From: Gemmatimonadota bacterium
GTDB lineage: Bacteria; GCA-2686955
Length of the DNA: 13,551 nt
NCBI GenBank assembly: GCA_002686955.1
Contig: NYZA01000121.1
Location: 1-13,551 of the forward strand
Direction: 5' to 3'
Shown piece by piece: positions 1 to 13,551 of this stretch. Numbering within the stretch: position 1 is the stretch's first letter; each line of letters begins with the position of its first letter. The translations under genes and the position numbers were made by a program. The notes beneath the pieces are model-generated. The model saw only the letters and a list, made by a program, of their open reading frames with translations, was not told where the DNA came from and ran no database searches.

Positions 1-214
1 CGCGACGAAATCCGGTGAGAAGTCCGGGCTAGCGCAACCCACCTGCTTCGGTGACATAGCCGGCAATGACGGAGTGATCAACGCCGCCGATTTCCGGCTC
101 ATGCAAGCCGCCGCCGGCTTCGCCCCCAGCCATTCCGCCGACCTCGATGAGAATGACGTAGTCGATATCGCGGGCGCCGCCGTCTTGCAGGGCTTGATCG
201 GGCCATGCCCCTGA
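1..214 (+). CDS. C-terminal end of a dockerin-like secreted protein (5' truncated by window)
   Basis: An open frame enters from the left edge (codons start at position 2) and ends at a TGA at 212-214, giving about 70 visible residues. The tail holds two calcium-loop-like segments: GDIAGNDGVINAADF near residues 17-31, and ADLDENDVVDIAG about 26 residues later. Each is followed by a short hydrophobic helix. This is the paired layout of type I dockerin-like modules. A cysteine just before the first loop (about residue 15) and one in the final GPCP bracket the module, as is common at the C-termini of planctomycete and related secreted proteins. The first loop has one residue more than the classic D-x-N-x-D-G spacing. 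The module probably mediates calcium-dependent folding or surface attachment. The main domain lies outside the window, so the protein's function cannot be stated. Confidence 0.75.
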   Translation, partial: ATKSGEKSGLAQPTCFGDIAGNDGVINAADFRLMQAAAGFAPSHSADLDENDVVDIAGAAVLQGLIGPCP

Positions 215-394
215 GAGTCGGCATAGGTCCATGTGCCCATAGTCCCCATTTGTCGGGGCGCCAAGGCTGCGCGCGAGGCAAGGCCGCCCCCAAAAAGGGA
301 AGCGCCTCCACGTGTCTCATATCCCAGAGCACTTGGGCAGCGCGCGAAGCGCGGCCCCAACAAAAGGAAAGCGCGTCCAAGTACCGAATCTCCC
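215..394. other. Gene-free stretch downstream of the dockerin-like gene
   Basis: No convincing coding sequence was found. Several frames stay open but translate to low-complexity Arg/Pro/Ala sequence typical of GC-rich non-coding DNA. The stretch holds the imperfect direct repeat listed separately and leads into the twin hairpins at 395-474. Confidence 0.6.
269..379 (+). repeat. Imperfect direct repeat, two ~41-bp units offset by about 70 bp
   Basis: Unit 1 (269-310) begins GCGCGCGAGGCAAGGCC and ends AAGCGCCTCCA. Unit 2 (340-379) begins GCGCGCGAAGCGCGGCC and ends AAGCGCGTCCA. Between these ends both units carry a run of A residues flanked by C and G. Similarity continues weakly into the following bases (CTCATATCCC versus CGAATCTCCC). 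This looks like a diverged tandem duplication in an intergenic region. Confidence 0.5.
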
Positions 395-438
395 GGGGCG
401 ATTATGCTGGCGCGCCAGCGCGCAGCATCAATCGCCCC
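395..438. terminator. Hairpin 1: 15-bp stem with one bulged C
   Basis: Bases 395-409 (GGGGCGATTATGCTG) pair perfectly with 423-428 plus 430-438, leaving C429 as a single bulge. The 13-nt loop region can form a further small CGCG/CGCG stem. It lies between the ends of two convergent genes, which suggests a bidirectional transcription stop or RNA 3'-end protector. There is no T-run on either side, so a classical Rho-independent mechanism is not shown. Confidence 0.6.
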
Positions 439-474
439 AGTTATTGCTGCGGGCTCCGCCCGCCAGCAATAACT
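439..474. terminator. Hairpin 2: 15-bp stem with one bulged C, overlapping the sulfatase stop codon
   Basis: Bases 439-453 (AGTTATTGCTGCGGG) pair with 459-462 plus 464-474, with C463 bulged and a 5-nt loop CTCCG. It abuts hairpin 1 directly, and its last two bases overlap the stop codon of the minus-strand sulfatase gene (473-475). The position between convergent genes fits a terminator, but no U-tract follows on either strand. Confidence 0.6.
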
Positions 475-2002
475 ACCAATAGCCTCGTTCCCTCAAAGCC
501 TCCCGAACCTCCTCCGGCGGCACCATCCCAGGATCGTCGCTCATCTCCAGGCCCAAGCGCCACTCCGCCAGCTCCCGCCTCAGCGAGTCCGCCAGCTCGG
601 GCTCCAGATACGCAATATCCAGCTGCTCGTCCGGATCTTCCACCGCATCGAACAGAGCGATCCGCTCACAGCTCACCGGCTCCCGAATCAGTTGGAGCAG
701 ATAGTCCGGATCGAGCAAGGAGGGCCCTGCGAAGGTCAGGCGGTGCCTCGCGGTACGAACCGACACCTGCCCCAGCACACCCTCCTGGAACACGGGCGGT
801 GGGTCGGTCTCCGCGTCGCCCGGAGCATGCCAGAGACTGCGCCCCCGCTGGCTGGCCGGGCTTCGCATCCCCACCGCGTCGCACAAGGTCGGGACGACAT
901 CGATCGCGGAGACCAGCTCGTCGCTCACCCTGCCGCGCCACTGCCGGGGCACCGCGCCCCCACCGATCAGCAGAGGCACCCGGGTCGTCGAGTCGAAGAG
1001 GACCGCTCGGTGATTGCTGAATCCGTGGGTCTGCAAGTCTTCACCGTGGTCTGCTGTGATCAACACGATCGTGTTGTTGAGCACGCCGCCGTACTCGAGC
1101 CATTCCAGGAAGAAGCCCACGTAGGTGTCGGCCGAGAATGCGCCGGAATCGTAATGATCGAGGATGTGGCAGAGGTCGGTGTCGGAAAGGGGCAGAGGCT
1201 TACCTCGAGCCAGCGATTCGAAAGCTTGCGGATCGGTCTGGTAGATCTTCGGATCGAGCATCTTCTCGCCCACCGCGTGCCAGATCCGCGGAAAGTCGAG
1301 ACCGGGGTAATAGGTCTTCCCGTAGATCCGTTCGGTGTCGTTGCGGGAGTGGGCGATCGTGTCGGCGATCCCGGAGTACTCCTGCCCGAAAGGATGGTTG
1401 AACACCCCGCGGTGCAGATAGGGCCGGTGGCAGTCGTAGCCGTGCACGAAGGCGAAGAAGGGCTCCCCGATCGGAATCGAGTCGATCCAGGCCATCGCGG
1501 CCATGGTGGATTCTCTTAGTGACCCGAAATCCGCCCTGGTTTCGTTGAAGCGGTCGAATCCCTGATCGAAGCCGAACACCCCCTTCACGTGGCCCCCGCC
1601 GACGAACGCACCGGTCCGAAAACCGTATTCCCGCAAGATCTCTTGCAGCATCATCTCGCCGTCGTCGACGATGAAGGTTTCGTAATCGGGGCGCGAGATC
1701 TCGGAGGCGTAACGACCGGTCAATAGGGCGGCGTGGGAGAGAAGCGACTCGTTCGACTGACTGAAGGAGAGGGGGAACTGGACCGCATCCTCCGCGAAGG
1801 CGCTGAGGCTGGGCGTGGGATCGTTCACATTGCCTGCAAGGCTCGTACGATCGTAGCGGAGCCCGTCGATCGATATCAGAATGACATTTGGACGCGTGCC
1901 GGAACCACGCTCCGCCTCTCCGGCACAACCGGCAACCCACGCCACCAGACACAACGCCGGAACGAGCCCGATCCGGGCCGCCGTGCCTCGAGGAACGTGC
2001 AC
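473..2002 (-). CDS. Sulfatase/alkaline-phosphatase-superfamily lipoprotein
   Basis: The 509-residue protein starts at a GTG (2000-2002), 9 nt after the stop of the upstream EF-hand gene, so translational coupling is likely; no clear ribosome site is visible. An N-terminal signal with lipobox VAGC (Cys26) predicts a lipid-anchored envelope protein. Sulfatase-fold markers appear in order: PNVILISIDGLRYD (metal Asp46), SLLSHAALLTGRY (86-98) at the nucleophile site, FFAFVHGYDCHRPY (182-195), ITADHGED (315-322), and SNHRAVLFDSTTRVPLL (329-345), which holds His331. The nucleophile position reads S-L-L-S-H rather than C/S-x-P-x-R, so formylglycine maturation is doubtful. The enzyme may instead use the hydroxyl of Ser86, as Thr-nucleophile phospho-transferases and hydrolases of this superfamily do, or it may be catalytically altered. 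The substrate cannot be read from the sequence. Superfamily membership is firm; arylsulfatase activity is not. Confidence 0.88.
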   Translation of the reverse strand: MHVPRGTAARIGLVPALCLVAWVAGCAGEAERGSGTRPNVILISIDGLRYDRTSLAGNVNDPTPSLSAFAEDAVQFPLSFSQSNESLLSHAALLTGRYASEISRPDYETFIVDDGEMMLQEILREYGFRTGAFVGGGHVKGVFGFDQGFDRFNETRADFGSLRESTMAAMAWIDSIPIGEPFFAFVHGYDCHRPYLHRGVFNHPFGQEYSGIADTIAHSRNDTERIYGKTYYPGLDFPRIWHAVGEKMLDPKIYQTDPQAFESLARGKPLPLSDTDLCHILDHYDSGAFSADTYVGFFLEWLEYGGVLNNTIVLITADHGEDLQTHGFSNHRAVLFDSTTRVPLLIGGGAVPRQWRGRVSDELVSAIDVVPTLCDAVGMRSPASQRGRSLWHAPGDAETDPPPVFQEGVLGQVSVRTARHRLTFAGPSLLDPDYLLQLIREPVSCERIALFDAVEDPDEQLDIAYLEPELADSLRRELAEWRLGLEMSDDPGMVPPEEVREALRERGYW

Positions 2003-2011
2003 TTGCGGCGA

Positions 2012-2422
2012 CTACGCGTCGGGTGCTTCGGCGGCCTTGGTCTTTCCGTCCTCAGGGGCCGGCTTCGGCCATGGAGTAGAAGCCGGGGGACGGAAGGTCT
2101 GGGCACTGTCGCCGGGTAGATAGGCCTGCACCGGACCGTGGATGATCGGGTTGAGGCCGCCGGTGAGCGGAGTCTTCTCGAGAAGCAGCGCCTCCAGCTC
2201 TTCGACCGTGATCGTCCCGTCGGAATCGAGATCGGCCTTCTTGAAGGCGATCGATCCGCGGGTGATCCGTTCGTACTCGGTGGTGTCTAGAACCTGGTCC
2301 TCGTTCGTGTCCAGACGGTCCATCACCCGCTGCACGGTTCGGGGGAAACGCAGCTCACGGGCTCCAAGCGCCAAAGCAGGTATCGCCAAGATCGCGATCA
2401 GAGTGATCGGGCGGATGGTCAT
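2012..2422 (-). CDS. Small secreted EF-hand calcium-binding protein
   Basis: This 136-residue protein has an N-terminal signal sequence (hydrophobic residues about 6-20, likely cleavage after ALALGA). Two EF-hand loops follow. Loop 1 at 38-49 reads DTNEDQVLDTTE (D38, N40, D42, D46, E49). Loop 2 at 64-75 reads DLDSDGTITVEE (D64, D66, D68, G69, E75), close to the canonical 12-residue pattern. The rest is a Pro/Lys/Glu-rich tail ending in AEAPDA with no recognisable fold. The ATG at 2420-2422 is preceded by GGAGAG with 4-nt spacing. The stop lies 9 nt before the sulfatase-family gene, so the two are almost certainly cotranscribed. A role as a periplasmic calcium-binding partner is inference from this pairing, since sulfatase-fold enzymes are metal dependent. 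Confidence 0.85.
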   Translation of the reverse strand: MTIRPITLIAILAIPALALGARELRFPRTVQRVMDRLDTNEDQVLDTTEYERITRGSIAFKKADLDSDGTITVEELEALLLEKTPLTGGLNPIIHGPVQAYLPGDSAQTFRPPASTPWPKPAPEDGKTKAAEAPDA

Positions 2423-2592
2423 GGGACTCTCCAGCCTTCCTTTTTGGAGGGGGACGACGGCTAGCTCTTCCTCGCGCTCGGCCGATTCGCCCGCGCGAGA
2501 AGTCGCGCCCTGAACTCCACTAACGAAAATAATATCCCCGAATCGAGCCGGCGTCCACCCTTCTGTGCCGCCGAAGCGTAGTATTGGCGGCC
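2423..2592. promoter_or_regulatory. Divergent intergenic region between the EF-hand and membrane-protein genes
   Basis: This 170-bp gap separates two divergent transcription units and must hold a promoter for each. The clearest signal is an AT-rich island at 2526-2535 (AAAATAATAT) in otherwise GC-rich sequence. It could supply a -10 element or an upstream element for either direction. No -35 box at standard spacing could be matched, so exact promoter coordinates are not claimed. Confidence 0.4.
2427..2432 (-). promoter_or_regulatory. Ribosome binding site of the EF-hand gene
   Basis: On the minus strand GGAGAG lies 4 nt before the ATG, with a second purine run (AAAAAGGAAGG) a little further upstream. 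It supports the chosen start. Confidence 0.6.
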
Positions 2593-4839
2593 ATGACGGA
2601 CGGGCATCCGATTGAATCCGCCGGGGGGCGGGCCGTGTGGCGGTGGAAAGACCGCCAGACCCTCTTCCACATCGGCCTCGCTTTGGGGCTGCTCCATCTG
2701 CCCCTATCGCTCGAGTTCTCGATCACGCTCACCCACCATGGTGCGCTGATCCAGTCCCTGGTCCTTTTCCTCTACCCCCTCGCCATCGCCTTGATGGGCC
2801 TGGGGGCGGCCCTCGCGCGAATCCGGCCGGAGCTGGCGCTCGGAACGACGCCGATGCGCATCGCGGGGGCGTCGCTGCTCGTCTTTCTCTGGGCGGCTCT
2901 GCGCGCGAACTTCCTGGTCAACGATTCCGGCTCACTCGTCTGGGCCGGATTCAGCCACCTCGCATCGCTCGGCGCGTGGTTTCTGGCCCTGGGCATGGGA
3001 CTTGCCGGGGCGCTCCAGCGGGTGCGCTCCGCCGATCCGAAAGAGGTGGGGTCGGGGTGGGCGATCCATTTGGCCGGGATCGTCCTGGGCTATCTGGTGA
3101 CCGAGTCGGCGATCGTTCACGTGGGTCCGAACGCCCTGATAGCGGCGAGCGGCCTGGCCTTTCTCGTCCTCCCGCGCCTTAGCCTCATCGCGCTGCCGCT
3201 GCTTCTGCTCGTCCTGCTCCCCACCGGATTGGAGCACCGCCTCGAGGGGTTGAGAGAGCTGGAGAGCTGGGACGAAGGGGTCACCGTCGGGATCGGGACC
3301 GAAGGGAATCTGTCAGACGAGGTCGAACGCGAGATGCTCGACGAGATGCGCGCTCCCCTCTTCGAAGGGTGGAGCCGCTACGGGCAGGTGCGGATCGTTC
3401 CGGTCGATGCGCGCAGATTGCTCGTGCTCTACAACCTCAAGCGGCAGTATGTGTACCGGCCGTACACGCTTCGGGAGAATGCGATGGACCCGGCCGAGCT
3501 GCGCAGGCGGGGCACCGCATCGGGGAGCGGCATGGCGGTTCGCACGCTCCTGTACACCAGCTTCGAGCCGACCGAGCGGCTCCTTTTCTCCGGAGTCGGC
3601 TCGGGTCGCAGCTTCACGCGCCTGACATTCCGCCCCGGCAAGCAGGTGACCGCGATCGAACGAGATCCGGCGGCCGCCCGCTACTTCAGCGAAGTGCGTC
3701 CGACCGACACCGACCATATCTTTTCCGATCTCGATTTCGTTGTTGCCGACGGACGGCACGCGATCGAGATCCAGACCGAGCCGCTCGATGCGATCGTCAT
3801 GGAGTCGAGCCGATATCAGCCACCGCACTCGATGCTGCCGGTCACGACCCCGCACTATCTCTACACACGTGACGCGATGGCGACCTGCATCAGGAAGCTC
3901 CGGCCGGAAGGGCTGCTCGCCATCGAGTTCTCGCGGACGGCGGACGATGAAACCCATCGCCTCGTTCCATACCAGGTGATCGAATCGCTGCGCGCGCTCG
4001 AGGTTCCATTCACGGTGATGCGAGCGGGCGCGCTCGACGATCTGACCCTCTTCGCGAGTCCGACCCAGGCGGGGCTCGATTCCTGGATGGAGAGGGTGGG
4101 GGGGGACGACCTGCCGGGTGTCGCCGGCGACTGGGATCCACAACCCTTGGCCCGGTGGATCGACTACGAGCTCACGGACGACACGCCCTTGGTCGGGTGG
4201 ATCTCGATGTCGGACGAAGACCGGCATCTGCTGATCACGGTCGCCTCGGGAGCGGTCGCGCTCACCCTCCTGCTGGTTCTGCTGCTCTATTTCTGGGAAG
4301 GGCGGGAGAGGAGATGGAACCCGATCCCCTTCTTTTTCGCGATCGGGTTGGGCCATTCGATCGTCCAGTTTCACGCCTTCTATGCGTGGCGCTCCTTCTT
4401 CGGGGACGACCTTCTCACCATCATTCGGCTGATCGTGTACTTCCTGCTCTTCGGTGCGGTCGGCAGCTGGCTCGCCCCGCGACTTCCGAAATCGCTTCTT
4501 CGAACCGCTCCGAGAAGCGCATTCGTCGTGGTTCTTCTCGCGCTTCATTTCGCGGGGATCGCGAACATCCCCTTCGAGGAGGGAAGTGCATCGATTCGTG
4601 AGCTCTACGGTCTGTTCGCACTCCTTCCCGGTGGGGTTCTGTTGGGTGCGTACTTTCCGCTGGGGATTGCAAGGGCGAGGCGCGAAGCAGTGGCACCCAG
4701 CTTTGCCGCCGACGCCTTCGGCACGCTCGCGGGATATGCGCTGATGTATCTTGTGTACGTTCCGGTCGGCGCCACCGCCTTCGCGGCGGTAGGAACGGCG
4801 TTCTACGCGGCCGCGACACTTCTCTTCAGCGACGAATGA
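2593..4839 (+). CDS. Polytopic membrane protein with central spermidine-synthase-like (SAM-binding fold) domain
   Basis: This is a 748-residue protein when started at the ATG at 2593; an in-frame TTG at 2584 would add three residues, and neither has a strong ribosome site. About seven membrane segments occupy residues 25-215. A soluble Rossmann-type domain follows, with LLFSGVGSGRSF (about 329-340, glycine-rich cofactor loop), VTAIERD (about 353-359), a VVADGRH segment and LDAIVMESSRYQPPHSML. TDDTPLVGW (about 528-536) matches the TDDxP element common in membrane-fused spermidine-synthase-like proteins. About seven more membrane segments end the protein. The polyamine gate motif DSSDP is replaced by MESSRY, so it is probably not a true aminopropyltransferase. 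Family members are often annotated as fused MFS/spermidine synthase; the substrate is unknown. The stop overlaps an in-frame alternative start of the following lipoprotein gene. Confidence 0.8.
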   Translation: MTDGHPIESAGGRAVWRWKDRQTLFHIGLALGLLHLPLSLEFSITLTHHGALIQSLVLFLYPLAIALMGLGAALARIRPELALGTTPMRIAGASLLVFLWAALRANFLVNDSGSLVWAGFSHLASLGAWFLALGMGLAGALQRVRSADPKEVGSGWAIHLAGIVLGYLVTESAIVHVGPNALIAASGLAFLVLPRLSLIALPLLLLVLLPTGLEHRLEGLRELESWDEGVTVGIGTEGNLSDEVEREMLDEMRAPLFEGWSRYGQVRIVPVDARRLLVLYNLKRQYVYRPYTLRENAMDPAELRRRGTASGSGMAVRTLLYTSFEPTERLLFSGVGSGRSFTRLTFRPGKQVTAIERDPAAARYFSEVRPTDTDHIFSDLDFVVADGRHAIEIQTEPLDAIVMESSRYQPPHSMLPVTTPHYLYTRDAMATCIRKLRPEGLLAIEFSRTADDETHRLVPYQVIESLRALEVPFTVMRAGALDDLTLFASPTQAGLDSWMERVGGDDLPGVAGDWDPQPLARWIDYELTDDTPLVGWISMSDEDRHLLITVASGAVALTLLLVLLLYFWEGRERRWNPIPFFFAIGLGHSIVQFHAFYAWRSFFGDDLLTIIRLIVYFLLFGAVGSWLAPRLPKSLLRTAPRSAFVVVLLALHFAGIANIPFEEGSASIRELYGLFALLPGGVLLGAYFPLGIARARREAVAPSFAADAFGTLAGYALMYLVYVPVGATAFAAVGTAFYAAATLLFSDE

Positions 4840-4843
4840 CAAG

Positions 4844-4849
4844 AGGAGA
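4844..4849 (+). promoter_or_regulatory. Ribosome binding site deciding the lipoprotein start
   Basis: AGGAGA lies 10 nt before the ATG at 4860. It sits downstream of the earlier in-frame ATG at 4836 and therefore favours 4860, which also gives a cleaner lipoprotein signal peptide. Confidence 0.6.
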
Positions 4850-4859
4850 GAGATCGACA

Positions 4860-5174
4860 ATGCCGCATTCGAAGATCTTGCTCGCGACACTGCTTCCGGT
4901 CTTCGTCGTGTTCGGCTGCGTGCGGGTGGGCAGGGACTTCCCCGCGACCGATGTTCCCGATATCGAGATCGGCGAGACCACCCGGGCCGACGTGAGGGTG
5001 ATGTTCGGAGAGCCCTGGAGGACGGGAATCGAAAACGGTGACCCTACCTGGACCTTTGGGCGCTACGAATACAAGCTCTTCGGCGAAACTGAGACCAAGG
5101 ATCTGGTGATCCGTTTCGATTCACGTGGCGTCGTGAGCGGTTACTCTTTCAATCGCTCGAATCCGCAGGAGTAG
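4860..5174 (+). CDS. SmpA/OmlA (BamE-like) domain lipoprotein
   Basis: This 104-residue protein has a short lipoprotein signal: MPHSK, a hydrophobic stretch, then VVFGC with the predicted lipidated Cys at residue 20. The mature part resembles the SmpA/OmlA fold of BamE. It contains IEIGETTRADVRVMFGEPW (about 36-54), in which a helix after IGxTTxxDV leads into a FGEP turn. Aromatic strands (TWTFGRYEYKLFG) and a final strand (LVIRFDSRGVVSGYSFN) follow. Such small lipoproteins usually sit at the periplasmic face of the outer membrane and can assist outer-membrane protein assembly, but many SmpA-domain lipoproteins are not BamE itself. An ATG at 4836 overlapping the upstream TGA (4837-4839) is an alternative start adding 8 residues; the ribosome site favours 4860. 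It is probably cotranscribed with the upstream membrane-protein gene. Confidence 0.75.
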   Translation: MPHSKILLATLLPVFVVFGCVRVGRDFPATDVPDIEIGETTRADVRVMFGEPWRTGIENGDPTWTFGRYEYKLFGETETKDLVIRFDSRGVVSGYSFNRSNPQE

Positions 5175-5202
5175 TAGGCGCTTTCTCTTCGGTATCGCCA
5201 GC

Positions 5203-8200
5203 TCAACGGGGCACAAGCAGCAGCGGAGCCACAAGCCGCTCGATCACCGATCCCCCGCCGTGGCGATAGGAGCGCCCGTCGCGAGAGATCCGAAAACCGT
5301 GATCCGCGAAGAGCAGAATCGGTCGCTCCGTATCGAGTCGGGAGACGATCCGTCGCAGCTCGATCGCCAGCTCCGCGACGGCCAAGCGGGCCAGATCATC
5401 GAAGCCGGGGAAGCGTTCGTGGATCATTTCATCGATCCGGTCGATCTTCTCGATCGCGTGGTTGAGTCCCTCATCGGCGAGGCTGCGATACCAGGCGTCG
5501 GTCGTTGTTGCCGGCACAGTGAGGGCATGAGTGCTCTCGCCGGAACGCCATCCCGGGAACAGGTCGACGATCTCCGCTCGAATCGCTTCGAACAGCACGG
5601 CGCCCATGGCATCAACCACGATCCAAGATGCATCGGTGTTTCGGCGAAGCAGGTCGGCCAGAGGCAAGGGTTCCGGGTCGAGGGGGAGCGACGCCATCTC
5701 GTCGAGGTGCGCCAGCCATCGTTCGCCGCCCGGGCCGCTAAGTCGATCGTGGTGCCGGTAGAGCTCGGCCAGAAGCGCGGCCCGTTCCGCTGGCGGGGCG
5801 GGTGGCGCCGGTCGTATCGCGTCGCCTGCAGTCTGCACCAGCGCCGTGCGCTTGCCCTTGGCGGGCGGCGGGATCGTTCCTTCGAAGAGCCAGCCCAGAA
5901 CCAGGTCCTCCGCATCGCGGCCGAGCCCTAGCTCGTCGAGGCGCGCGCTCGCTTTTCGGCCTACCCAGTCGGGACGGATCGCCGCGGCCATCGTCGCGAG
6001 ATCGCCCGCCCCGAAACCGGGGGGCAAGGGCGTGCCGCCGCGGAGACATTGCTCAGCACACCAGCGAGCCAGATCCTCCCGCGTTTCAGCCGAATCCGGC
6101 GATGAAAAGCGCAGCCGTTCACTCGATCTCCGCTCCACCCACGCGGTGATCTCCGATCGGAGCTCCTCTTTCGACCAAGTGCGCCCGCCGAGAAGATCCA
6201 CCACCTCGCCGACATCGATCGCTTCCACAACGTCGAGCTCCGCGAGGCGGCGATCGAGACGCTCCACGTCTTGTGTATCGGGGTAGCTCGCCCTTCCATC
6301 CACGTACTGCAGCAGTGTCGGATGATCGTCGATGCCATCCCGGGTCAACGCGCCGACCCGATCCCGCACCTCTCGCCTGTCGAAGAAACGGCCCAGGGCG
6401 CCCTCGATCTCGCCGCGCAGACGCTCCAGCTCTTCGACCGAATCGGCGTAGGGCGCTCTGCGTCCGTCGAAGTCGCACGTGCAGATCGGCTGAAAACGCA
6501 GATCGATCAGGCCGCGACACTTCAGCTCTTCGGCGCACGCCATCGTCGTCGACCACTGCGCCATTAGGGTGTCGATCCCAAGATTGCGGCTGCGCGCCAC
6601 CGCGGGCGGCTTCCAGGCCGCGGCGCGATCGATCCACTCCTTCCACCACTGCGCGTGCAGACGTGCGTACGCTTTTTCGTAGCGTGCGTACAGATCCTCG
6701 GCCCCCTCGATCCAGCGGGCGAGCTCATCCGGAGCCGCGATACCGGGCGGATCTCCCAGCTCCTCCACCGCCGCGACCATCTCGGGTTGAGACTGCGTTT
6801 CGAGCCCCTTGTGGCCGAAGAGGAAGAGAAAACGTTGTCGCTCACTCGAGAGCCGATCGACCCGTCCCGGTAGCTGCATCAGCTCGCGCATCCGCGCGAC
6901 GAACTGTTCCGGGCTTGCTATCTCGCGAAGGAAGAGTCGCAATCCCGCGATCTCGTCCGATCCGGTGTCGAGGACCGTCCACGTGCTCATGATCTCGCGG
7001 ATCTCGTTCACCAACTCGTTGGCGCCCTCAGTCTTCTCGAGTCGCTCCGCGAAGACCAGGAGCTTGGCGCGGGTTTTCCCTCCGATCTCCCGGATCCGTC
7101 CCGCGGTCTTCCGCTGGGCGAGCACCGTCCATCGATCGGGCCGGCGCATTCGCAATCCGTCGAGCAGCCTTTCCAGCGCGCGAAGCTCCTCCACCGCCAG
7201 GGCGCGTCCGGCGACGATCCTGTCGTACTGAATCGGCCGTGGCAGTGTTTCGTACAGCTCCCGATAGCTCTTCCGCCCTTTGACAAGGTCGATCTCGCCC
7301 TGAAAGACGAGGAAGAGCAGAAGCAGATCGATCTGGTCGTCCACCAGCCCGAAGATCGGCTCTCTCGCGACCTGATAGAGATGCTCGGGAGCGGGCTCGA
7401 CATCGAGGCGAGAGGTCACGAGCTGAACGAGCTCGTGCTTGTCGAGGGTGGCCGATATCTTATAACCGCGCCCCTGTCTCTCGATGAGCCGCATCGGCAC
7501 CCAGTACCCCTCGCGGATCACGGCAATGGTGTCGCTTCCGCCCCCTTCCAGCGAATCGTCGGCGTTCGCGAAGCGACCCAGCTCGATGTAGCTGCGTTTC
7601 GGAAGTGGACCTTCCGCGGGCGCGAATCGCTCGAAAGCGGGGTAGATCCGGCGCGTCATCTGGATCGCCAACCCCTCGAGCCAGGGGCCGGATTCGCTGG
7701 ATTCGGCGCGCTGGGCCGGCGTTCGCTCACCTCGGGGGGAGATCAGCTCCGCGTCGAGATAGGCCGCCCGCAAGCGCGCCACGAGAGTGGAGCAGCGATC
7801 GTCGATCCGCGCGTCGAGCCTCTCTCGCGCCCTCTTCGACCAGGGCCGCCGGGCGACGGCGAGCAGCGCCGCCAGCTCCAGGAGCTCTGGGCCCGGCTCG
7901 ATCGGTGCGGGCCGAAGCACGAAGAGATCCCCGGAGCCCTCGGCGGAGCCCCACGGCAGTCGAATACAGAGGGCCGGCCCGATATCGGGCGGGGGAGGGG
8001 GAGCGTCGTTTCCGACGTAGACCGCGAAATGGCGTTCGTGGAAATGCCATCGAAAACGGCGGCTCTGCCACTCCTCCCAGGGAAGGTCGAAGGGCGCGAT
8101 CCCCCGACGCGCCAGCTCCGGCGCCACCCGTTCGAAGAGGGCCTCTTTACGACCGCTCAGCTCGGACTTTTCGGTCGCGAGCGCACGTTCCACCGCCGCG

Positions 8201-9516
8201 ATATCGTCATCGTCGAGATCGAGCCGAAATATGTTGCCGTCGCGAGAGACGTAGCGACCGCGATCGCGGAGCTCCCGCAACACACCCTCGACGATCGCGA
8301 CATTCTTCGCCGGATCGGTGCGGCTCGCGCGGATCATCAGCCACCGGGCGGCCTGCTCCGCGCTCACACCATCGTGGTCGGGTGTCAGATGGGCCAGAAT
8401 CAGCAGATCGACCACCCGCCGGGCCAGCGCCGCCCGCGCCGGAGCGGGAAAGAGCGTCGCCAGATTCTTCTCGTAGTAAGGAAATAGGCGTTGGGCGATC
8501 GGCAGAAACTCCGACTGCACGTCGAGCAGATCGCGGAAATGGTGAACGATCCGTTCCGGAGTGAGGAACTCGCCCCAGGGTCGATCGAGAAAAGGCTCGA
8601 TCCCCCGCTCCGGCTTCCCCGCGAGCTGCGCCGTGACGAAATCGACCGCCCCCCGCGCTTGCGAAAAACGGTCCCTAATCGACTCGAGGAAATCGATCGT
8701 GGCCGGATGAAGCGGATAGACTTGGCGAAGCGCCCCCTCGTCGAGCCCGAACGCGGGAAGTGTCTCTTCTACGCGTTGTTCGAGTTGAGCAATCGCCGCG
8801 TCGTAGCCCTCTTTGCGCACCAAAACGGCCGAGCCAAGCAGATCGCGCAGGTGCGAGGGCCCGAGCAGATAGCGAAGGGGGTAGCGATCGCGGATCTTGC
8901 GATAGAGCGTGCGCTCGATCTCGCCGGTGTGCTCGATCTGCTCTTGCAGCGCCGCGATGACCCAGAAGCGATTGCCCATCGCCCATTCGCCCATGTACTG
9001 CAGAAAGCGCACATCTTCGTTGAATCGCTGCGCATCCGGCTTCGAGCGGAGAAACTCCGAGAGCTCGTCGAGCACGAGCACCACACCTTGCTCCTCCCGT
9101 TCCTGCAGCCGAGCCCACGCGGGGCGCCGGTCCCCTGGCGCCTGGTCGATGCCGAGCGCCTCGCGGACGATCTTCTCGAGGGCCAGCTCGGCGGGGTAGT
9201 TCAGAAGAGAGATCGGAACAACGGCGCTGCTCCGGGGCGAGAGTTCGGCCCGGCGGATCGAGCGCGTGACGAAGGCGAGAAAATGCGATTTGCCCGAGCC
9301 GTACGGCCCGATCAGGAAGATTCCCGTGCCTTGCGGCCGATCGAGCACCTTGCGCAGCGACGAGAGGTGGTTCTCCACCTCCGCTGTCAGGTGATACGAT
9401 TCGACGATCCACTCTTCGTCGAGATTGGCCAGCCGAACGACGGTCGGATGGCTGCGCACGTCGATCCAGCGGCGGATCGCGGGGTTGGCGCGGTCGGTGG
9501 TCGAGCTCGTGGACAT
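5203..9516 (-). CDS. Large BrxC/PglY-like P-loop ATPase fused to a C-terminal PglZ-like phosphatase-fold domain
   Basis: This is a 1437-residue cytosolic-looking protein. The N-terminus carries a P-loop ATPase with Walker A GPYGSGKSHFL (70-80, written from IGPYGSGKS) and Walker B VVLVLDELSEF (145-155). A helical ATPase extension runs to about 430. This resembles the large ATPases BrxC/PglY of BREX phage-defence systems. A long helical middle region contains Cys994, Cys1000, Cys1012 and Cys1014, a possible zinc site. The last ~140 residues look like a compact PglZ/alkaline-phosphatase-fold domain: WIVVDAMG (Asp1302), TVPATTTDAW with candidate nucleophile Thr around 1337-1339, LLFADHGF (Asp1405, His1406) and RHGGGSVIE (His1419). 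The ATG at 9514-9516 is chosen because the frame further upstream runs antisense to the TPR gene; no good ribosome site is seen. BREX normally encodes ATPase and PglZ separately. Domain calls are from motifs only, and function in defence is inferred. Confidence 0.75.
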   Translation of the reverse strand: MSTSSTTDRANPAIRRWIDVRSHPTVVRLANLDEEWIVESYHLTAEVENHLSSLRKVLDRPQGTGIFLIGPYGSGKSHFLAFVTRSIRRAELSPRSSAVVPISLLNYPAELALEKIVREALGIDQAPGDRRPAWARLQEREEQGVVLVLDELSEFLRSKPDAQRFNEDVRFLQYMGEWAMGNRFWVIAALQEQIEHTGEIERTLYRKIRDRYPLRYLLGPSHLRDLLGSAVLVRKEGYDAAIAQLEQRVEETLPAFGLDEGALRQVYPLHPATIDFLESIRDRFSQARGAVDFVTAQLAGKPERGIEPFLDRPWGEFLTPERIVHHFRDLLDVQSEFLPIAQRLFPYYEKNLATLFPAPARAALARRVVDLLILAHLTPDHDGVSAEQAARWLMIRASRTDPAKNVAIVEGVLRELRDRGRYVSRDGNIFRLDLDDDDIAAVERALATEKSELSGRKEALFERVAPELARRGIAPFDLPWEEWQSRRFRWHFHERHFAVYVGNDAPPPPPDIGPALCIRLPWGSAEGSGDLFVLRPAPIEPGPELLELAALLAVARRPWSKRARERLDARIDDRCSTLVARLRAAYLDAELISPRGERTPAQRAESSESGPWLEGLAIQMTRRIYPAFERFAPAEGPLPKRSYIELGRFANADDSLEGGGSDTIAVIREGYWVPMRLIERQGRGYKISATLDKHELVQLVTSRLDVEPAPEHLYQVAREPIFGLVDDQIDLLLLFLVFQGEIDLVKGRKSYRELYETLPRPIQYDRIVAGRALAVEELRALERLLDGLRMRRPDRWTVLAQRKTAGRIREIGGKTRAKLLVFAERLEKTEGANELVNEIREIMSTWTVLDTGSDEIAGLRLFLREIASPEQFVARMRELMQLPGRVDRLSSERQRFLFLFGHKGLETQSQPEMVAAVEELGDPPGIAAPDELARWIEGAEDLYARYEKAYARLHAQWWKEWIDRAAAWKPPAVARSRNLGIDTLMAQWSTTMACAEELKCRGLIDLRFQPICTCDFDGRRAPYADSVEELERLRGEIEGALGRFFDRREVRDRVGALTRDGIDDHPTLLQYVDGRASYPDTQDVERLDRRLAELDVVEAIDVGEVVDLLGGRTWSKEELRSEITAWVERRSSERLRFSSPDSAETREDLARWCAEQCLRGGTPLPPGFGAGDLATMAAAIRPDWVGRKASARLDELGLGRDAEDLVLGWLFEGTIPPPAKGKRTALVQTAGDAIRPAPPAPPAERAALLAELYRHHDRLSGPGGERWLAHLDEMASLPLDPEPLPLADLLRRNTDASWIVVDAMGAVLFEAIRAEIVDLFPGWRSGESTHALTVPATTTDAWYRSLADEGLNHAIEKIDRIDEMIHERFPGFDDLARLAVAELAIELRRIVSRLDTERPILLFADHGFRISRDGRSYRHGGGSVIERLVAPLLLVPR

Positions 9517-9579
9517 ATTCCGGAGGATCGAAGGAGTGACAATCGCCCGCACATTAGCACAGGCTCTGGAGGACGAAGT
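9517..9579. promoter_or_regulatory. 63-bp divergent promoter region between the ATPase-PglZ and TPR genes
   Basis: The two start codons are only 63 bp apart on opposite strands, so both promoters must lie here or extend into the coding regions. ACATTAGCA (9551-9559) is the most AT-rich spot; read on the minus strand it gives TAATGT, a weak -10 candidate for the ATPase gene. Matching -35 elements are not evident. Confidence 0.35.
9568..9572 (+). promoter_or_regulatory. Ribosome binding site deciding the TTG start of the TPR gene
   Basis: GGAGG lies 7 nt before the TTG at 9580. The open frame continues far upstream, but that upstream part is antisense to the ATPase gene and has no comparable site, so this element fixes the start. 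Confidence 0.7.
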
Positions 9580-10551
9580 TTGAGCGAGCCGCACGAAGTC
9601 GTTCGGCGCAACGTGCGCAGCGCGATTCAGGCGCGCAACTACGCCGAAGCGGAGCGTGGGCTCCATCTTCTGCGCCGGGACGATCCTCTCGCTTTCGAGA
9701 CCCGCATGCTCGAGCTGGAGCTGCTCTCGTCGACCGGGCGCATCGACGAGGCGCGCCGCTGCGCCGATCGCCTTCTCGATCGCTTCCCCGAGTCGGCGCG
9801 GGCGCACTATCTGGCCGGCAGATCCGCCTATCTGGCGCGGGAGTACGGGCGCGCGGAACCGATGCTCCGCGAGAGCATATCGCTCGAGCCGAGGTGGTGG
9901 AACCAACGTTACCTTGGAAAAACGCTGACGCAGGTGGGCCGTTTTGACGAGGCCGAGGCGATACTAATAGAGTTGGTCGAACAACACCCTTTGTGCAAGA
10001 AAGACCTGGCGTGGCTGTACGAGAGAAGGGGGCGTTTTGCTTCCGCTTGCAACCAGGTCGAGTCGTTTTTGCGTGATCGTCCCAACGATCGAATGGCCCA
10101 AGACCAGCTCCGCAGATTGAAGGCCAAATCTCTCGATCCGGATGCACTCATCGAAGAGGCGGAGACACTGATCCAGCTCGGTGAGACCCTCTCGGACGAC
10201 CTTTGGCCCGCCTATGTCCGTTCCCTTCTGGAGCGCGGGAGGCGAGAAGACGCCGCGACGATCATAGCCGAAAACCTCAGCTGTTTCTCGACGAAGCTCG
10301 CCTGCACTATCGGTTGGGAGTGTCGCGCACTGCAGGCGCTCGATCTGACCTGCGAGCTCTTTCTGCGAGGATTCGGCCACGGCGTGCGCAACGTCAAGTT
10401 TCTCAACGCTTTGGAGTCGGCGGCCAGGCTGTGCGACAGATCGAGCGACCTGATTCCGGTGTACGAAGCGCACGCGGACGAACATCGAAATCTGTACGGA
10501 CGTTTGCATGGCGTGCGCGCCAGCGCATCCAAGGAGGCTGGGTCGACGTGA
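9580..10551 (+). CDS. Tetratricopeptide-repeat protein, cytosolic
   Basis: This 323-residue protein starts at a TTG with a strong ribosome site. It has no signal peptide or membrane segment. About five TPR-like helical pairs cover residues 8-172. Clear units include residues 39-72 (LSSTGRIDEARRCADRLLDR), 73-106 (AHYLAGRSAYLAREYGRAEP) and 107-139 (RYLGKTLTQVGRFDEAEAIL). The C-terminal half (about 180-310) is helical and cysteine-containing but lacks clear TPR consensus, and may be diverged repeats. TPR solenoids bind protein partners; no catalytic motif is seen. The stop codon overlaps the start of the OPT transporter gene by 4 nt, so the two form an operon. It is divergent from the ATPase-PglZ gene. 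A link to either neighbour's function is possible but not shown. Confidence 0.8.
   Translation: MSEPHEVVRRNVRSAIQARNYAEAERGLHLLRRDDPLAFETRMLELELLSSTGRIDEARRCADRLLDRFPESARAHYLAGRSAYLAREYGRAEPMLRESISLEPRWWNQRYLGKTLTQVGRFDEAEAILIELVEQHPLCKKDLAWLYERRGRFASACNQVESFLRDRPNDRMAQDQLRRLKAKSLDPDALIEEAETLIQLGETLSDDLWPAYVRSLLERGRREDAATIIAENLSCFSTKLACTIGWECRALQALDLTCELFLRGFGHGVRNVKFLNALESAARLCDRSSDLIPVYEAHADEHRNLYGRLHGVRASASKEAGST
10531..10537 (+). promoter_or_regulatory. Ribosome binding site of the OPT transporter gene
   Basis: AAGGAGG lies 10 nt before the GTG at 10548, inside the end of the TPR gene. It decides the start, because the frame is open further upstream in TPR-gene shadow. Confidence 0.7.
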
Positions 10552-12434
10552 GCTTGCCGACACCAGCGGGTCCGGATCCCCTCCCACCCGAAGCCCGCGC
10601 CGCCGCCTCTCGCCTCGGCGTTCTCGCCGGCCTGGTCGTCTCGATCCTCGTCGCCGCCGCCCTGGTCATCTCGGCCGCCAAGGTCGGAATCACGCCCGGA
10701 GTCAGCCCCCTCGTCGTCCTCCTCGGCTGGGTCGTGCTCGGCGCCCTCCTCGGCCCCCGTCTCAAACGCTTCCTCGCCATCTTCCAGGTCACCGGATCGG
10801 CGGGCGCGGCGGTCACCGCCGGCGTCGTCTTCACAGCCCCGATCCTGCAGATCATCGCCGCCGAGCAGGGCGCCCCCGTTCCCCCGGTCGACGTGCCGTT
10901 GCTCATCGTCGCCAGCCTCTCCGGCGCCCTCCTCGGCTTCGGATTCGTCGGCCTCGCCACCCGCCGCTTCCTCAGCGACCCCCGCCTGCCCGCCCCCGAG
11001 GCCGTTGCCGCCGACCGCCTCATCGAAACCGCCGTCGAGCGCCCCGAAGCCCGCCCTCGCCTCGGCCCCTCCCTCTTCGCCGGACTTCTCTCCGGCTTCC
11101 TCGTCCAGGCCGCGCTCCTCCTCGGTTGGCTCGCCGAAGAGATCCACACCCTCGTCCTGCGCCCGCGCCTGCCCCTGCTCGGCCGCATCGAGCTCGACCT
11201 CCCGCTGCCCGCCGCCCCGATCTACCTCGGCATCGGCGCCTTGCTCACCCTCCCGACCGCCCTGCTCGTCTTCTCCGGCGGCCTCGTCAACGCCGTCACC
11301 ACCGGCTACGCCGCCGCCCACGCCATGCCCCCGACCACCTTCCGCTGGGTCGGCGGAGCCGCGATGGTCGTGGCGGTGCTCTACAGCCTCATCCACTACG
11401 TCGCCGAAGGTCGTGCCGCCGCCCGCGCCGCCTCGTCCCACGCCGCGCCCACCGCCCCCAACTCCCTTACCGACGTCACCCTGCTCGAGCTCTCCGACGA
11501 GACCCGCCGCGCCCTGTACGCCTCGATCGCCCTCGGACTCGTTCTGCTCGCAGCGCTCATGGCGATGGTCGGCGCCCCCCCCGGCACCATCGCCGTCCTC
11601 GGCGCCGTCTCCTTCATCCTCGTCTCCCTCCTCTCCGGCCTCGGCGGACTCCTCTCCCTCCAGGTCGGCAGCTCCGCTTCACCGGTCAGCGGCACCGTCT
11701 TCATGGGCATGCTCGTCCTCAGCATCACCGCCCTCGGCATCGGCCTCTCCGGCATGGCCGGCGTCGCCCTCCTGGTCCCGATCGTCGTCGCCGCCTGCGT
11801 CGCCATCTGCGCCGCCAACGACTCCAGCCAGGACTATAAAACTATGCAGCTCAACGGCTACCGCGTGTCCGACGGCTTCACCGGTCAGCTCGCGGGCCTC
11901 ATCGGCGGCGCCGTCATCGTGCCGATCACGCTCTGGATGGCCCACGAAGCCTACGCCCTCGGCAGCCCCGACCTCCCCGCCCCCCAGGCCAGCTTCTTCT
12001 CCACCGTCCTCGCCTCCCTCTTCCTCGACGCCGAGATCCCGATCGGCCCTGTCGCCGCCGGCGCCTGCCTCGGCCTCCTCGCCGTCGCCATCGAAACCGC
12101 CGGACGCCGCCGCGGACTGATCCTCAGCTCTCTCGCCTTCGCCGTCGGCATCTACCTCCCCTCCGTCATCGGCACCGGCATCATGCTCGGCGCCACCGCC
12201 CGTTTCCTCGCCAACCCCCGCGCCCCCACCGCCCCCCACGCCGGAATCCTGAACGCCGCGGGCCTCATCACCGGCGACGCCTTCGCCGCCCTCACCCTCG
12301 GCGTCCTCATCATCGCCGGAGTGGATCACACTGGGTGGGGGCCGGGATCCGGGGCCGGGCTGCCGGGTCTGGTGGGGTGGGTGGCGCTGGTGGCGATGCT
12401 CGGGTGGATCGGCTGGAACCATCGGAAGGGGTAG
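10548..12434 (+). CDS. OPT-family (oligopeptide transporter-like) membrane permease
   Basis: This 628-residue polytopic membrane protein begins at a GTG that overlaps the TPR stop (10548-10551). Many hydrophobic segments span the length, consistent with the roughly 14-16 helices of the OPT family. Family signatures are visible: LPAPEAVAADRLIE in the first large cytoplasmic loop, NDSSQDYKTMQ at 424-434 (the OPT NDSSQDxKTG-like element), GIYLPSVIGTGIMLG, and AAGLITGDAFA near the C-terminus. OPT proteins take up oligopeptides or metal-chelate complexes using the proton gradient; the substrate here cannot be read. Codon use is strikingly C-ending (CTC, GTC, GCC, ATC) from the start to about 12315. 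It then switches abruptly to G-rich sequence for the last ~115 nt, which encode the final membrane segment and short tail. The reading frame is intact through the switch. Confidence 0.9.
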   Translation: MSLPTPAGPDPLPPEARAAASRLGVLAGLVVSILVAAALVISAAKVGITPGVSPLVVLLGWVVLGALLGPRLKRFLAIFQVTGSAGAAVTAGVVFTAPILQIIAAEQGAPVPPVDVPLLIVASLSGALLGFGFVGLATRRFLSDPRLPAPEAVAADRLIETAVERPEARPRLGPSLFAGLLSGFLVQAALLLGWLAEEIHTLVLRPRLPLLGRIELDLPLPAAPIYLGIGALLTLPTALLVFSGGLVNAVTTGYAAAHAMPPTTFRWVGGAAMVVAVLYSLIHYVAEGRAAARAASSHAAPTAPNSLTDVTLLELSDETRRALYASIALGLVLLAALMAMVGAPPGTIAVLGAVSFILVSLLSGLGGLLSLQVGSSASPVSGTVFMGMLVLSITALGIGLSGMAGVALLVPIVVAACVAICAANDSSQDYKTMQLNGYRVSDGFTGQLAGLIGGAVIVPITLWMAHEAYALGSPDLPAPQASFFSTVLASLFLDAEIPIGPVAAGACLGLLAVAIETAGRRRGLILSSLAFAVGIYLPSVIGTGIMLGATARFLANPRAPTAPHAGILNAAGLITGDAFAALTLGVLIIAGVDHTGWGPGSGAGLPGLVGWVALVAMLGWIGWNHRKG

Positions 12435-12461
12435 AGGGAGAGGGACGGGGGAGTAGGGGGG
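12333..12461 (+). other. Two G-quadruplex-type motifs around the OPT stop codon
   Basis: At 12333-12367 there are six runs of at least three G separated by 1-5 nt, and at 12428-12461 there are five such runs separated by 2-4 nt. The second cluster begins inside the last codons and extends past the TAG at 12432-12434. Both match the simple G3+N1-7 rule on the coding strand, so both the DNA and the mRNA 3' end could fold. Whether they do so in the cell is unknown. Confidence 0.5.
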
Positions 12462-12569
12462 AGGCGATACGCGATTTCGGGGTGCCGCGTGCGGTAGCGA
12501 CGCAATTCTTCGGTAGCTGCGAGCCACGGCGGGGCGTGGGGTGTTTGCTTTTGAACGGGTTTGCGGGGG

Positions 12570-12596
12570 GCAGCTCGTAGTGAGCTGCACAGTTTT
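12570..12596 (+). terminator. Probable intrinsic terminator of the TPR-OPT operon
   Basis: GCAGCTC (12570-12576) pairs perfectly with GAGCTGC (12582-12588) around the loop GTAGT, and ACAGTTTT follows. The 7-bp GC-containing stem plus a short T-run, about 135 nt after the OPT stop, fits an intrinsic terminator. The T-run is short. Confidence 0.5.
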
Positions 12597-12689
12597 CGGC
12601 ATCGCTCCTTTGGGTTCGAGATCAGCCCACATTATTCACCGGGAATTCGAGAAGTCGGCTACACTTGGAACAGATGCAGCATAAGAAAA

Positions 12690-12830
12690 GTGTCTACGAA
12701 AACGGGGGAACATCCCACGCTCACTCCCCCGGATTCGAGCAAAACCCGGCTCGGCGGTGTTCTGGCACAGGACCCGGTGAAGGAGAGCTTCCTAGCCACG
12801 GGGGGGAAGACATTCATGAGGGGAGCTTGA
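12690..12830 (+). CDS. Doubtful 46-residue ORF, possible gene remnant
   Basis: A GTG-started frame encodes a hydrophilic peptide beginning MSTKTGEHPTLTPP and ending FLATGGKTFMRGA. Third positions are moderately G/C-rich and the composition looks protein-like rather than the Arg/Pro-rich pattern of shadow frames. There is no ribosome site, no recognised domain, and the frame stops abruptly 25 nt before the convergent TPR gene ends. It could be the preserved N-terminus of a decayed gene or chance. No function is assigned. Confidence 0.2.
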   Translation: MSTKTGEHPTLTPPDSSKTRLGGVLAQDPVKESFLATGGKTFMRGA

Positions 12831-12855
12831 TCGTTCCACCTCGGTCTGTATCGCG

Positions 12856-13551
12856 TCAGCCCGCTTCTTTGAATCCGCTCAGGAATTCCTGGGCGAACAC
12901 TCGCTCTTCCACTGCGAGCGGATGGAGGGCATCACCGGCTCCACCAAGATGGGCGCGAACCGCAACCAGAGGCCCGAGATTCTCTTGAATTGGAGCATTT
13001 TCCAGAGCAACCAGGTAGTCCCAGGATTCACACCACAGTCGCGCATCGCCGTGGCGCTGAGCGATGGTCAAGAAGGCGGTGCCTAGAGCCAGCTTCGCCG
13101 TTTCTTGCATCGTTCCAAAAAGCGCATCGATTTTGCCTTTGAGTCGGCGACGCTCCTCCGTTGCAGCGGGGAGGCGCCAACATGTTTTGGCGAGAGCGTG
13201 AATGAGATTGTGCATTTGAAGCGTGGGGTCGCGAGCACTGAGCTCGAGCGCGGCGAGCAGATCTTCGGTCTCCGATCGAGCGTCTCCCAAAACACTGTGG
13301 GCGGTCGCACGATTGACGAGGGCCAGGACCATGTGTTCCGGAGGTGCCTCCTTCAGCTCGACGATGCGTGTGTAGTCAGCGAGCGCCGCCGCGGCGTTTC
13401 CTAGCTGCCCTTGGGTGACTCCGCGGTTCAAGAGAGCATTCGCTATCTGGGGTGGCGCCGCGTCCTCCAACTCGATCGCACGCGTATAGTCGGCAATCGC
13501 TGCCTCGTTGTCGCCAAGTCTGTCATGGCAGATGCCTCGGTTGTTGCAGGC
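12856..13551 (-). CDS. TPR-repeat protein, N-terminus beyond the window edge
   Basis: The frame is open from the right edge to a TGA at 12856-12858, giving 231 visible residues; the true start lies outside. Three tandem TPR units are seen: NNRGICHDRLGDNEAAIADY, then NRGVTQGQLGNAAAALADY, then NRATAHSVLGDARSETEDL. Each of the first two is followed by TRxxELxxAPP-type linkers. The ~40-residue period and NRG...LGD...AxADYTR consensus match a TPR subtype found in long multi-repeat bacterial proteins, some carrying N-terminal signalling or STAND-type NTPase domains. The C-terminal ~120 residues form a helical, non-repeat domain ending EFLSGFKEAG. Whether an enzymatic domain lies upstream cannot be seen. 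A TTG at 13468-13470 is an internal candidate start, but homology of the upstream codons to a TPR unit argues against it. Confidence 0.8.
   Translation of the reverse strand, partial: ACNNRGICHDRLGDNEAAIADYTRAIELEDAAPPQIANALLNRGVTQGQLGNAAAALADYTRIVELKEAPPEHMVLALVNRATAHSVLGDARSETEDLLAALELSARDPTLQMHNLIHALAKTCWRLPAATEERRRLKGKIDALFGTMQETAKLALGTAFLTIAQRHGDARLWCESWDYLVALENAPIQENLGPLVAVRAHLGGAGDALHPLAVEERVFAQEFLSGFKEAG

Follow-up and report, generated by a model that had tools for sequence, protein, structure and literature searches.

The locus examined here lies on a stretch of 13,551 nucleotides from a Gemmatimonadota bacterium (assembly GCA_002686955.1, contig NYZA01000121.1, positions 1 to 13,551), the whole of which is called the window below. 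A single open frame on its reverse strand (5203–9516, ATG at 9516) encodes a protein of 1437 residues in which a BrxC-type (DUF6079) ATPase is joined to a C-terminal PglZ domain, and a tetratricopeptide repeat (TPR) gene is read divergently upstream of it. BrxC and PglZ are core parts of bacteriophage exclusion (BREX) systems. A preliminary description, made from the sequence alone, had read the frame as a fusion of a BrxC-like ATPase with a PglZ-like domain, and this reading was borne out by profile matches to solved structures and by predicted structures. The occurrence of the fusion with its motifs is far beyond chance.

A BrxC-type ATPase and a PglZ domain in one chain

No relative was found by peptide-pattern scans that used only the window protein. 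Relatives were reached through a DUF6079 profile survey of 386 genomes and then through an alignment of the ATPase domain, which gave at least 513 relatives, 80 of them as named loci that could be read. The survey supplied a 1754-residue fusion from another phylum (L033), whose ATPase is 36% identical to that of the window over 296 residues (E = 1e-51) and whose last 78 residues also match (2e-4). Nearly all complete frames among the named loci (about 1420–2150 residues) end in the same PglZ tail, and ATPase and PglZ share a single open frame in more than 50 genomes.

Residues 1–440 (8197–9516, reverse strand, as are all features of this gene) form an ORC/Cdc6-type AAA+ ATPase region by Pfam, profile and Foldseek comparisons. 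The fusion protein matched DUF6079 (PF19557) at 56.4 bits (1.3e-15), above the curated cut-off of 23 bits, while its 31.7 bits against the NCBIfam BREX_BrxC equivalog NF033441 did not reach the cut-off of 400 bits. A single-sequence phmmer search of the protein against the PDB gave no match and profiles were needed; one built from 42 sequences of the N-terminal half matched BREX BrxC (9zdx) with an E value of 1.8e-18, which upholds the BrxC likeness first noticed. An AlphaFold model of residues 1–760 (mean predicted local distance difference test score, pLDDT, 88) was compared with the PDB by Foldseek, where ranks 1–6 were all BrxC (3.8e-10 to 1.7e-7), followed by ORC/Cdc6.

The Walker A motif GPYGSGKS occupies residues 70–77 (9286–9309) and the Walker B motif VVLVLDE residues 145–151 (9064–9084); both had been recognised previously, at 69–76 and 145–155. 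Among 63 aligned relatives, G70, K76, S77, D150, E151, R170 and R211 are invariant. R211 (8884–8886) aligns in the profile alignment with the arginine of the BrxC motif KIAGRF and is probably the arginine finger. Further along, in the C-terminal part of DUF6079, the cluster C1000/C1012/C1014 (6475–6519) is invariant in 42 sequences and probably binds zinc. The subfamily is marked by the motifs DELSEFL[KR] and FSQxRGxVDF, which are absent from ordinary DUF6079 and SspC proteins. Profile comparison and modelling together establish the N-terminal half as an ATPase of the BrxC/DUF6079 and ORC/Cdc6 type, with an intact site.

The C-terminal half begins with a helical linker (residues ~1140–1297, 5626–6099), the end of which resembles the linker of PorX, the model aligning to PorX from residue 1195. 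A minimal PglZ core with the fold of nucleotide pyrophosphatases/phosphodiesterases (NPP) and alkaline phosphatases then follows (residues 1298–1437, 5206–5625), as judged from model alignment and profile matches. By itself, this domain of the window protein matched no Pfam family and did not reach PF08665, so the PglZ assignment had to be tested through relatives. A profile of 55 C-terminal domains matched, in the PDB, PorX (4.4e-11) and the BREX PglZ structures 9nv3 (3e-7) and 9zn5 (1e-4), and 11 of the 55 family members matched PF08665 (E up to 0.01). The assignment thus held for the family profile but not for a Pfam search with the window domain alone. In the AlphaFold model of residues 700–1437 (pLDDT 88), the part spanning residues 1195–1437 gave VIA Z scores of 13.4 to PorX and 10.1 to BREX PglZ, in line with the alkaline-phosphatase fold first suggested for it. 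NPP enzymes scored 8 to 9 (Xac NPP 7.8); low values in this search may reflect the fold only, and the PglZ matches stood well above the NPP matches.

The putative metal ligands are D1302 (5611–5613), D1362-x3-H1366 (5419–5433), D1405-H1406 (5299–5304) and H1419 (5260–5262), with T1339 (5500–5502) as the predicted nucleophile. Wherever the C-terminal domain is present (57 or 58 of 63 relatives), D1302, T1339, D1405, H1406, G1407, H1419 and G1420 are invariant. A second alignment of 55 C-terminal sequences upheld this conservation, with T1339 at 90% or more. D1302, T1337–1339, ADHG at 1404–1407 and H1419 had been correctly placed in the preliminary description, which missed D1362 and H1366; these two are also invariant in PglZ-bearing relatives, and so the seven-residue two-metal site is complete. 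D1302, T1339, D1362, H1366, D1405, H1406 and H1419 together match in full the two-metal site typical of NPP enzymes within the alkaline-phosphatase superfamily. By profile alignment and published assignments (PMC11974810), T1339 corresponds to T272 of PorX and T538 of Escherichia fergusonii PglZ, and H1419 to PorX H500 and E. fergusonii PglZ H741. Mutation of these counterparts reduces nuclease activity and phage defence (PMC11974810). The C-terminal domain is shown by these alignments and models to be a PglZ domain, with an intact two-metal site.

The core is unusually short, as had been remarked at the outset: 135 residues separate D1302 from the C-terminal end, against a family range of 132–218. 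The clade of the window has the shortest core, with only 23 residues from T to D compared with 31–95 elsewhere in the family, indicating that the inserts of PorX are gone. PorX itself, a receiver–PglZ response regulator with the same fold and metal site, carries ~160 more loop residues around the core. Two parts of BREX PglZ are also missing from the fused version, namely the N-terminal domain that binds BrxB and the beta domain at the C-terminal end. Absence of the BrxB-binding part fits the absence of BrxB from the genome (84.5% complete), in which neither BrxB (PF08747) nor PglX type 1 (NF033452) was matched, other PglX types not having been searched. The 13.5 kb of the window hold no gene for a BREX methyltransferase, BrxB, BrxA or BrxL, in agreement with the initial impression that other BREX genes are missing.

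The likeness to PorX raises a different possibility, that a nucleotide signal is ended or tuned by the PglZ core through cleavage of oligonucleotides, cyclic or linear, the ATPase and the TPR protein being regulators. PorX is the best structural match of the C-terminal half, and both PorX and BREX PglZ cleave cyclic oligonucleotides (PMC11974810). However, the fusion has no receiver domain, the ATPase to which the core is joined belongs to the DNA-loading BrxC type, and genes for a cyclase or a CARF-like partner are not recurrent neighbours, so that we regard a signalling phosphodiesterase as distinctly improbable. A separate PorX-like protein is encoded in the same genome (L001, contig C144, 13745–17326), in a 535-residue frame with a receiver-type N-terminal part and a PglZ C-terminal part. 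A Pfam search of the genome for PglZ matched this protein alone (PF08665, 7.5e-14), and its gene is followed by a P-loop gene resembling tsaE.

The TPR partner gene

The TPR gene (9580–10551, forward strand) encodes 323 residues, assigned to TPR by Pfam, from a TTG start at 9580 preceded by a likely ribosome-binding site, GGAGG (9568–9572). It was recovered by a profile search of all frames and overlaps a frame of an OPT transporter. Between it and the fusion gene lies a 63-bp divergent intergenic region (9517–9579); no sigma-70-type promoter or terminator was found in 9300–9800. The protein is 37–44% identical to the TPR proteins that adjoin the fusion in relatives of its clade, and its gene is single-copy in the window genome (390 bits, against 77 for the runner-up).

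Linkage of the two genes was strong across the family. Where at least 1 kb of upstream sequence was available, the TPR gene adjoined the fusion in 45 of 51 PglZ-bearing loci, compared with one of five loci that have the ATPase without PglZ. Relative to the fusion, the TPR gene is placed upstream, divergently in 18/18 members of the window clade with a linked gene and co-directionally in 44/44 loci elsewhere; a few of the loci in these orientation counts are duplicates from a single genome. Of the six loci without an adjoining TPR gene, four have a TPR homologue elsewhere in the genome (three strong, at 318–358 bits, and one at 177 bits); of the others, L059 gave only weak generic TPR matches and the genome of L104 was not searched. 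Distances between TPR proteins were correlated with those between ATPases (r = 0.92, n = 43), a value far beyond the maximum of 0.14 reached in 999 permutations; this shows shared inheritance and not contact.

When 192 genomes were searched with the TPR profile alone, matches above 150 bits came solely from G000, G075, G149 and G088, all of which carry the ATPase subfamily of the fusion; in G149 and G088, contig ends cut the locus before the PglZ part. No strong match was found in G078, which lacks PglZ. Within the phylum of G075, the strong matches were the two genomes with a full fusion, and G416, with a fragment from another branch, had none. By linkage and co-occurrence, a conserved partnership of the fusion with the TPR protein is strongly supported, and the earlier suggestion of one gene plus a TPR partner gains accordingly.

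Several loci depart from this pattern. The G416 fragment (L053, 6387–9821) ends in a tail, TDHGL...HGTGG, that resembles those of L075 and L080 (Verrucomicrobiota, Spirochaetota) and belongs to a divergent branch of the PglZ part. L035, L036, L085 and L091 (CSSED10-310 and a relative) have the same ATPase subfamily, and PglZ and TPR are missing from them together; their synteny is kept, a gene for a small predicted membrane protein preceding the ATPase and a cyclophilin-like gene following it. In L064 (7907–11950, metagenome-assembled genome of Clostridia), the ATPase lacks the PglZ extension and the TPR neighbour is retained, and a DNA methyltransferase-like gene lies at 14648–16219.

Distribution and neighbouring genes

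In the tree, the window belongs to a clade of 16 that has full support and includes members from Acidobacteriota, Pseudomonadota, Planctomycetota and Myxococcota, its closest relative there being 57% identical in the ATPase. Complete fusions were found in at least 13 phyla (these four together with Actinomycetota, Verrucomicrobiota, Spirochaetota, Bacillota, Thermodesulfobacteriota, Nitrospirota, Bacteroidota, Vulcanimicrobiota and Fidelibacterota), which are intermixed in the tree. The cultured Moorella stamsii DSM 26217 (L065) is among the carriers of both the fusion and the TPR gene. The window genome represents an isolated lineage, and the fusion was found neither in its family-mate nor in 58 other genomes. 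Presence is patchy elsewhere as well: in the phylum of G075, three of 40 genomes carry the fusion, and G216, a genome of the same genus that is 99% complete, does not.

This distribution bears on whether the gene is the leftover of an ordinary BREX operon that decayed or was split and lost its other genes in this genome. The absence of other BREX genes here, and the identity of the two halves as core BREX parts, could be read in that way. However, more than 50 genomes of the 13 phyla carry this same fusion, with its motifs intact and with the TPR protein again as partner, and a PglZ without its BrxB-binding N-terminal part is a settled architecture. A broken remnant is extremely unlikely, and we rejected it because both the fusion and its active site are conserved.

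Among genes beside the relatives, a RecQ-like helicase was found in eight loci (immediately upstream of the fusion in seven) and an SNF2 helicase in four. Apart from TPR, RecQ and SNF2, no family recurred at PglZ-bearing loci across distant lineages. Neither a HerA/FtsK translocase nor PAPS reductase and DUF4007 genes were present in the window or recurrent beside the relatives. The window itself also contains a sulfatase-family lipoprotein-like gene (473–2002, reverse strand), which belongs to the alkaline-phosphatase superfamily and lies outside the module, and a gene for a 751-residue membrane protein (2584–4839, forward strand) whose middle part is methyltransferase-like (spermidine-synthase type).

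Relation to BREX and proposed role

In BREX, an ATP-dependent core complex is made up of BrxC, BrxB and PglZ, with BrxB joining the ATPase to PglZ (PMC13326643), and the nuclease activity of PglZ contributes to defence (PMC11974810). The fusion shares with the core of Type I systems, such as those of Acinetobacter and E. fergusonii, a BrxC-type AAA+ ATPase and a two-metal PglZ domain. It differs in that both are on one chain, PglZ is cut to about 140 residues, PglX, BrxB, BrxA and BrxL are absent from the locus, and a TPR protein is the constant partner. PADLOC models of SspC (6e-13) and BrxC (7e-10) matched the fusion protein in its ATPase region. In contrast to the Ssp phosphorothioation or Type 4 BREX systems, however, the window locus has no SspB, SspD, PAPS reductase or DUF4007 gene, and the Walker B motif reads DELSEFL where SspC has DELLDYL.

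A DUF6079 ATPase with PglZ outside canonical BREX is also known from the BREX-related (BR) and BREX-related capture (BRC) systems (Rakesh and Krishnan 2026, PMC12839542). There the two are separate genes, accompanied in BRC by HerA/FtsK, DUF4007 and a STAND NTPase, while Type-3 BR has a DUF499 ATPase with a helicase and a methyltransferase. The main text of that 2026 census of PglZ elsewhere mentions neither TPR nor RecQ nor an ATPase–PglZ fusion, and no description of PglZ together with a TPR or RecQ protein was found in the main texts of the open-licence literature. Within the literature searched, the fusion is an unreported, stripped-down relative of BREX. In the operons of L039, L040 and L041, a BrxC-like ATPase of about 1400 residues, a separate ~800-residue protein with a PglZ-like HGG motif and a third protein of 790 residues are encoded together; these look like another BREX-related arrangement.

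We favour the reading that the fusion and its dedicated TPR protein make up a two-gene minimal module related to BREX, the purpose of which is probably defence against phages or invading DNA. In such a module, the ATPase part would assemble ATP-dependently on DNA or on a foreign nucleoprotein, and the TPR protein would sense the trigger and take over the bridging and regulating part played by BrxB in BREX. The PglZ core on the same chain, gated by the ATP state, would then nick DNA or cut oligonucleotides, using T1339 as the nucleophile and two metal ions. Since no methyltransferase is linked to the fusion, the choice between self and non-self would depend on what triggers the module rather than on marks on DNA; self-marking, if any, would differ. 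The fusion turns the BrxC–PglZ association of BREX into a covalent one and dispenses with BrxB, and in some lineages a RecQ or SNF2 helicase is added to the operon.

Several observations weigh against a role in defence. The survey of homologues, which recovered the same fusion so widely, found few defence genes beside it: PADLOC models matched few of the 111 other neighbour proteins (25 most frequent families listed), mostly as generic helicases, so that any relation to defence islands is weak. A defence-island context was sought around the loci and not found, and the flanking genes are mostly ordinary chromosomal or housekeeping genes. The fusion was not found on the plasmids and phages searched, and viral contigs gave only weak DUF6079 matches. 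Some Halanaerobiales copies have common flanking genes, which fits vertical descent in that group. Finally, because the short core has none of the inserts seen in PorX and BREX PglZ, its substrate may differ from theirs.

The housekeeping flanks, the scarcity of defence genes nearby and the absence from the plasmids and phages searched would suit a chromosomal DNA-maintenance or repair module, in which an ORC/Cdc6-like ATPase with a nicking enzyme tethered to it would act, alongside a TPR adaptor and at times a RecQ or SNF2 helicase, on the cell's own stalled forks or damaged DNA. The RecQ and SNF2 partners of some lineages and the ORC/Cdc6 resemblance of the N-terminal structure point the same way. 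A repair module is nevertheless unlikely given the patchy presence of the fusion, even between sister genomes of one genus, the intermixing of phyla in the tree and the fact that both halves are closest to BREX proteins or PorX.

As for the defence module, it may be one instance of a distinct and widespread two-gene immune system, a TPR sensor with a BrxC–PglZ fusion, that achieves BREX-like restriction without DNA modification and has the ATP-gated effector core of BREX set apart in a single polypeptide; we hold this wider proposal tentatively, at somewhat under even chances. How BREX arrests phages is unsettled because six or more proteins act in shifting complexes. A single chain that tethers a BrxC ATPase to a PglZ nuclease, with one constant partner, would be far simpler to work with in purification, structure determination and mutagenesis, and because its metal site is invariant and its TPR partner near-obligate, the key predictions can be tested directly. 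The fusion also indicates that PglZ effectors exist beyond the systems catalogued in 2026.

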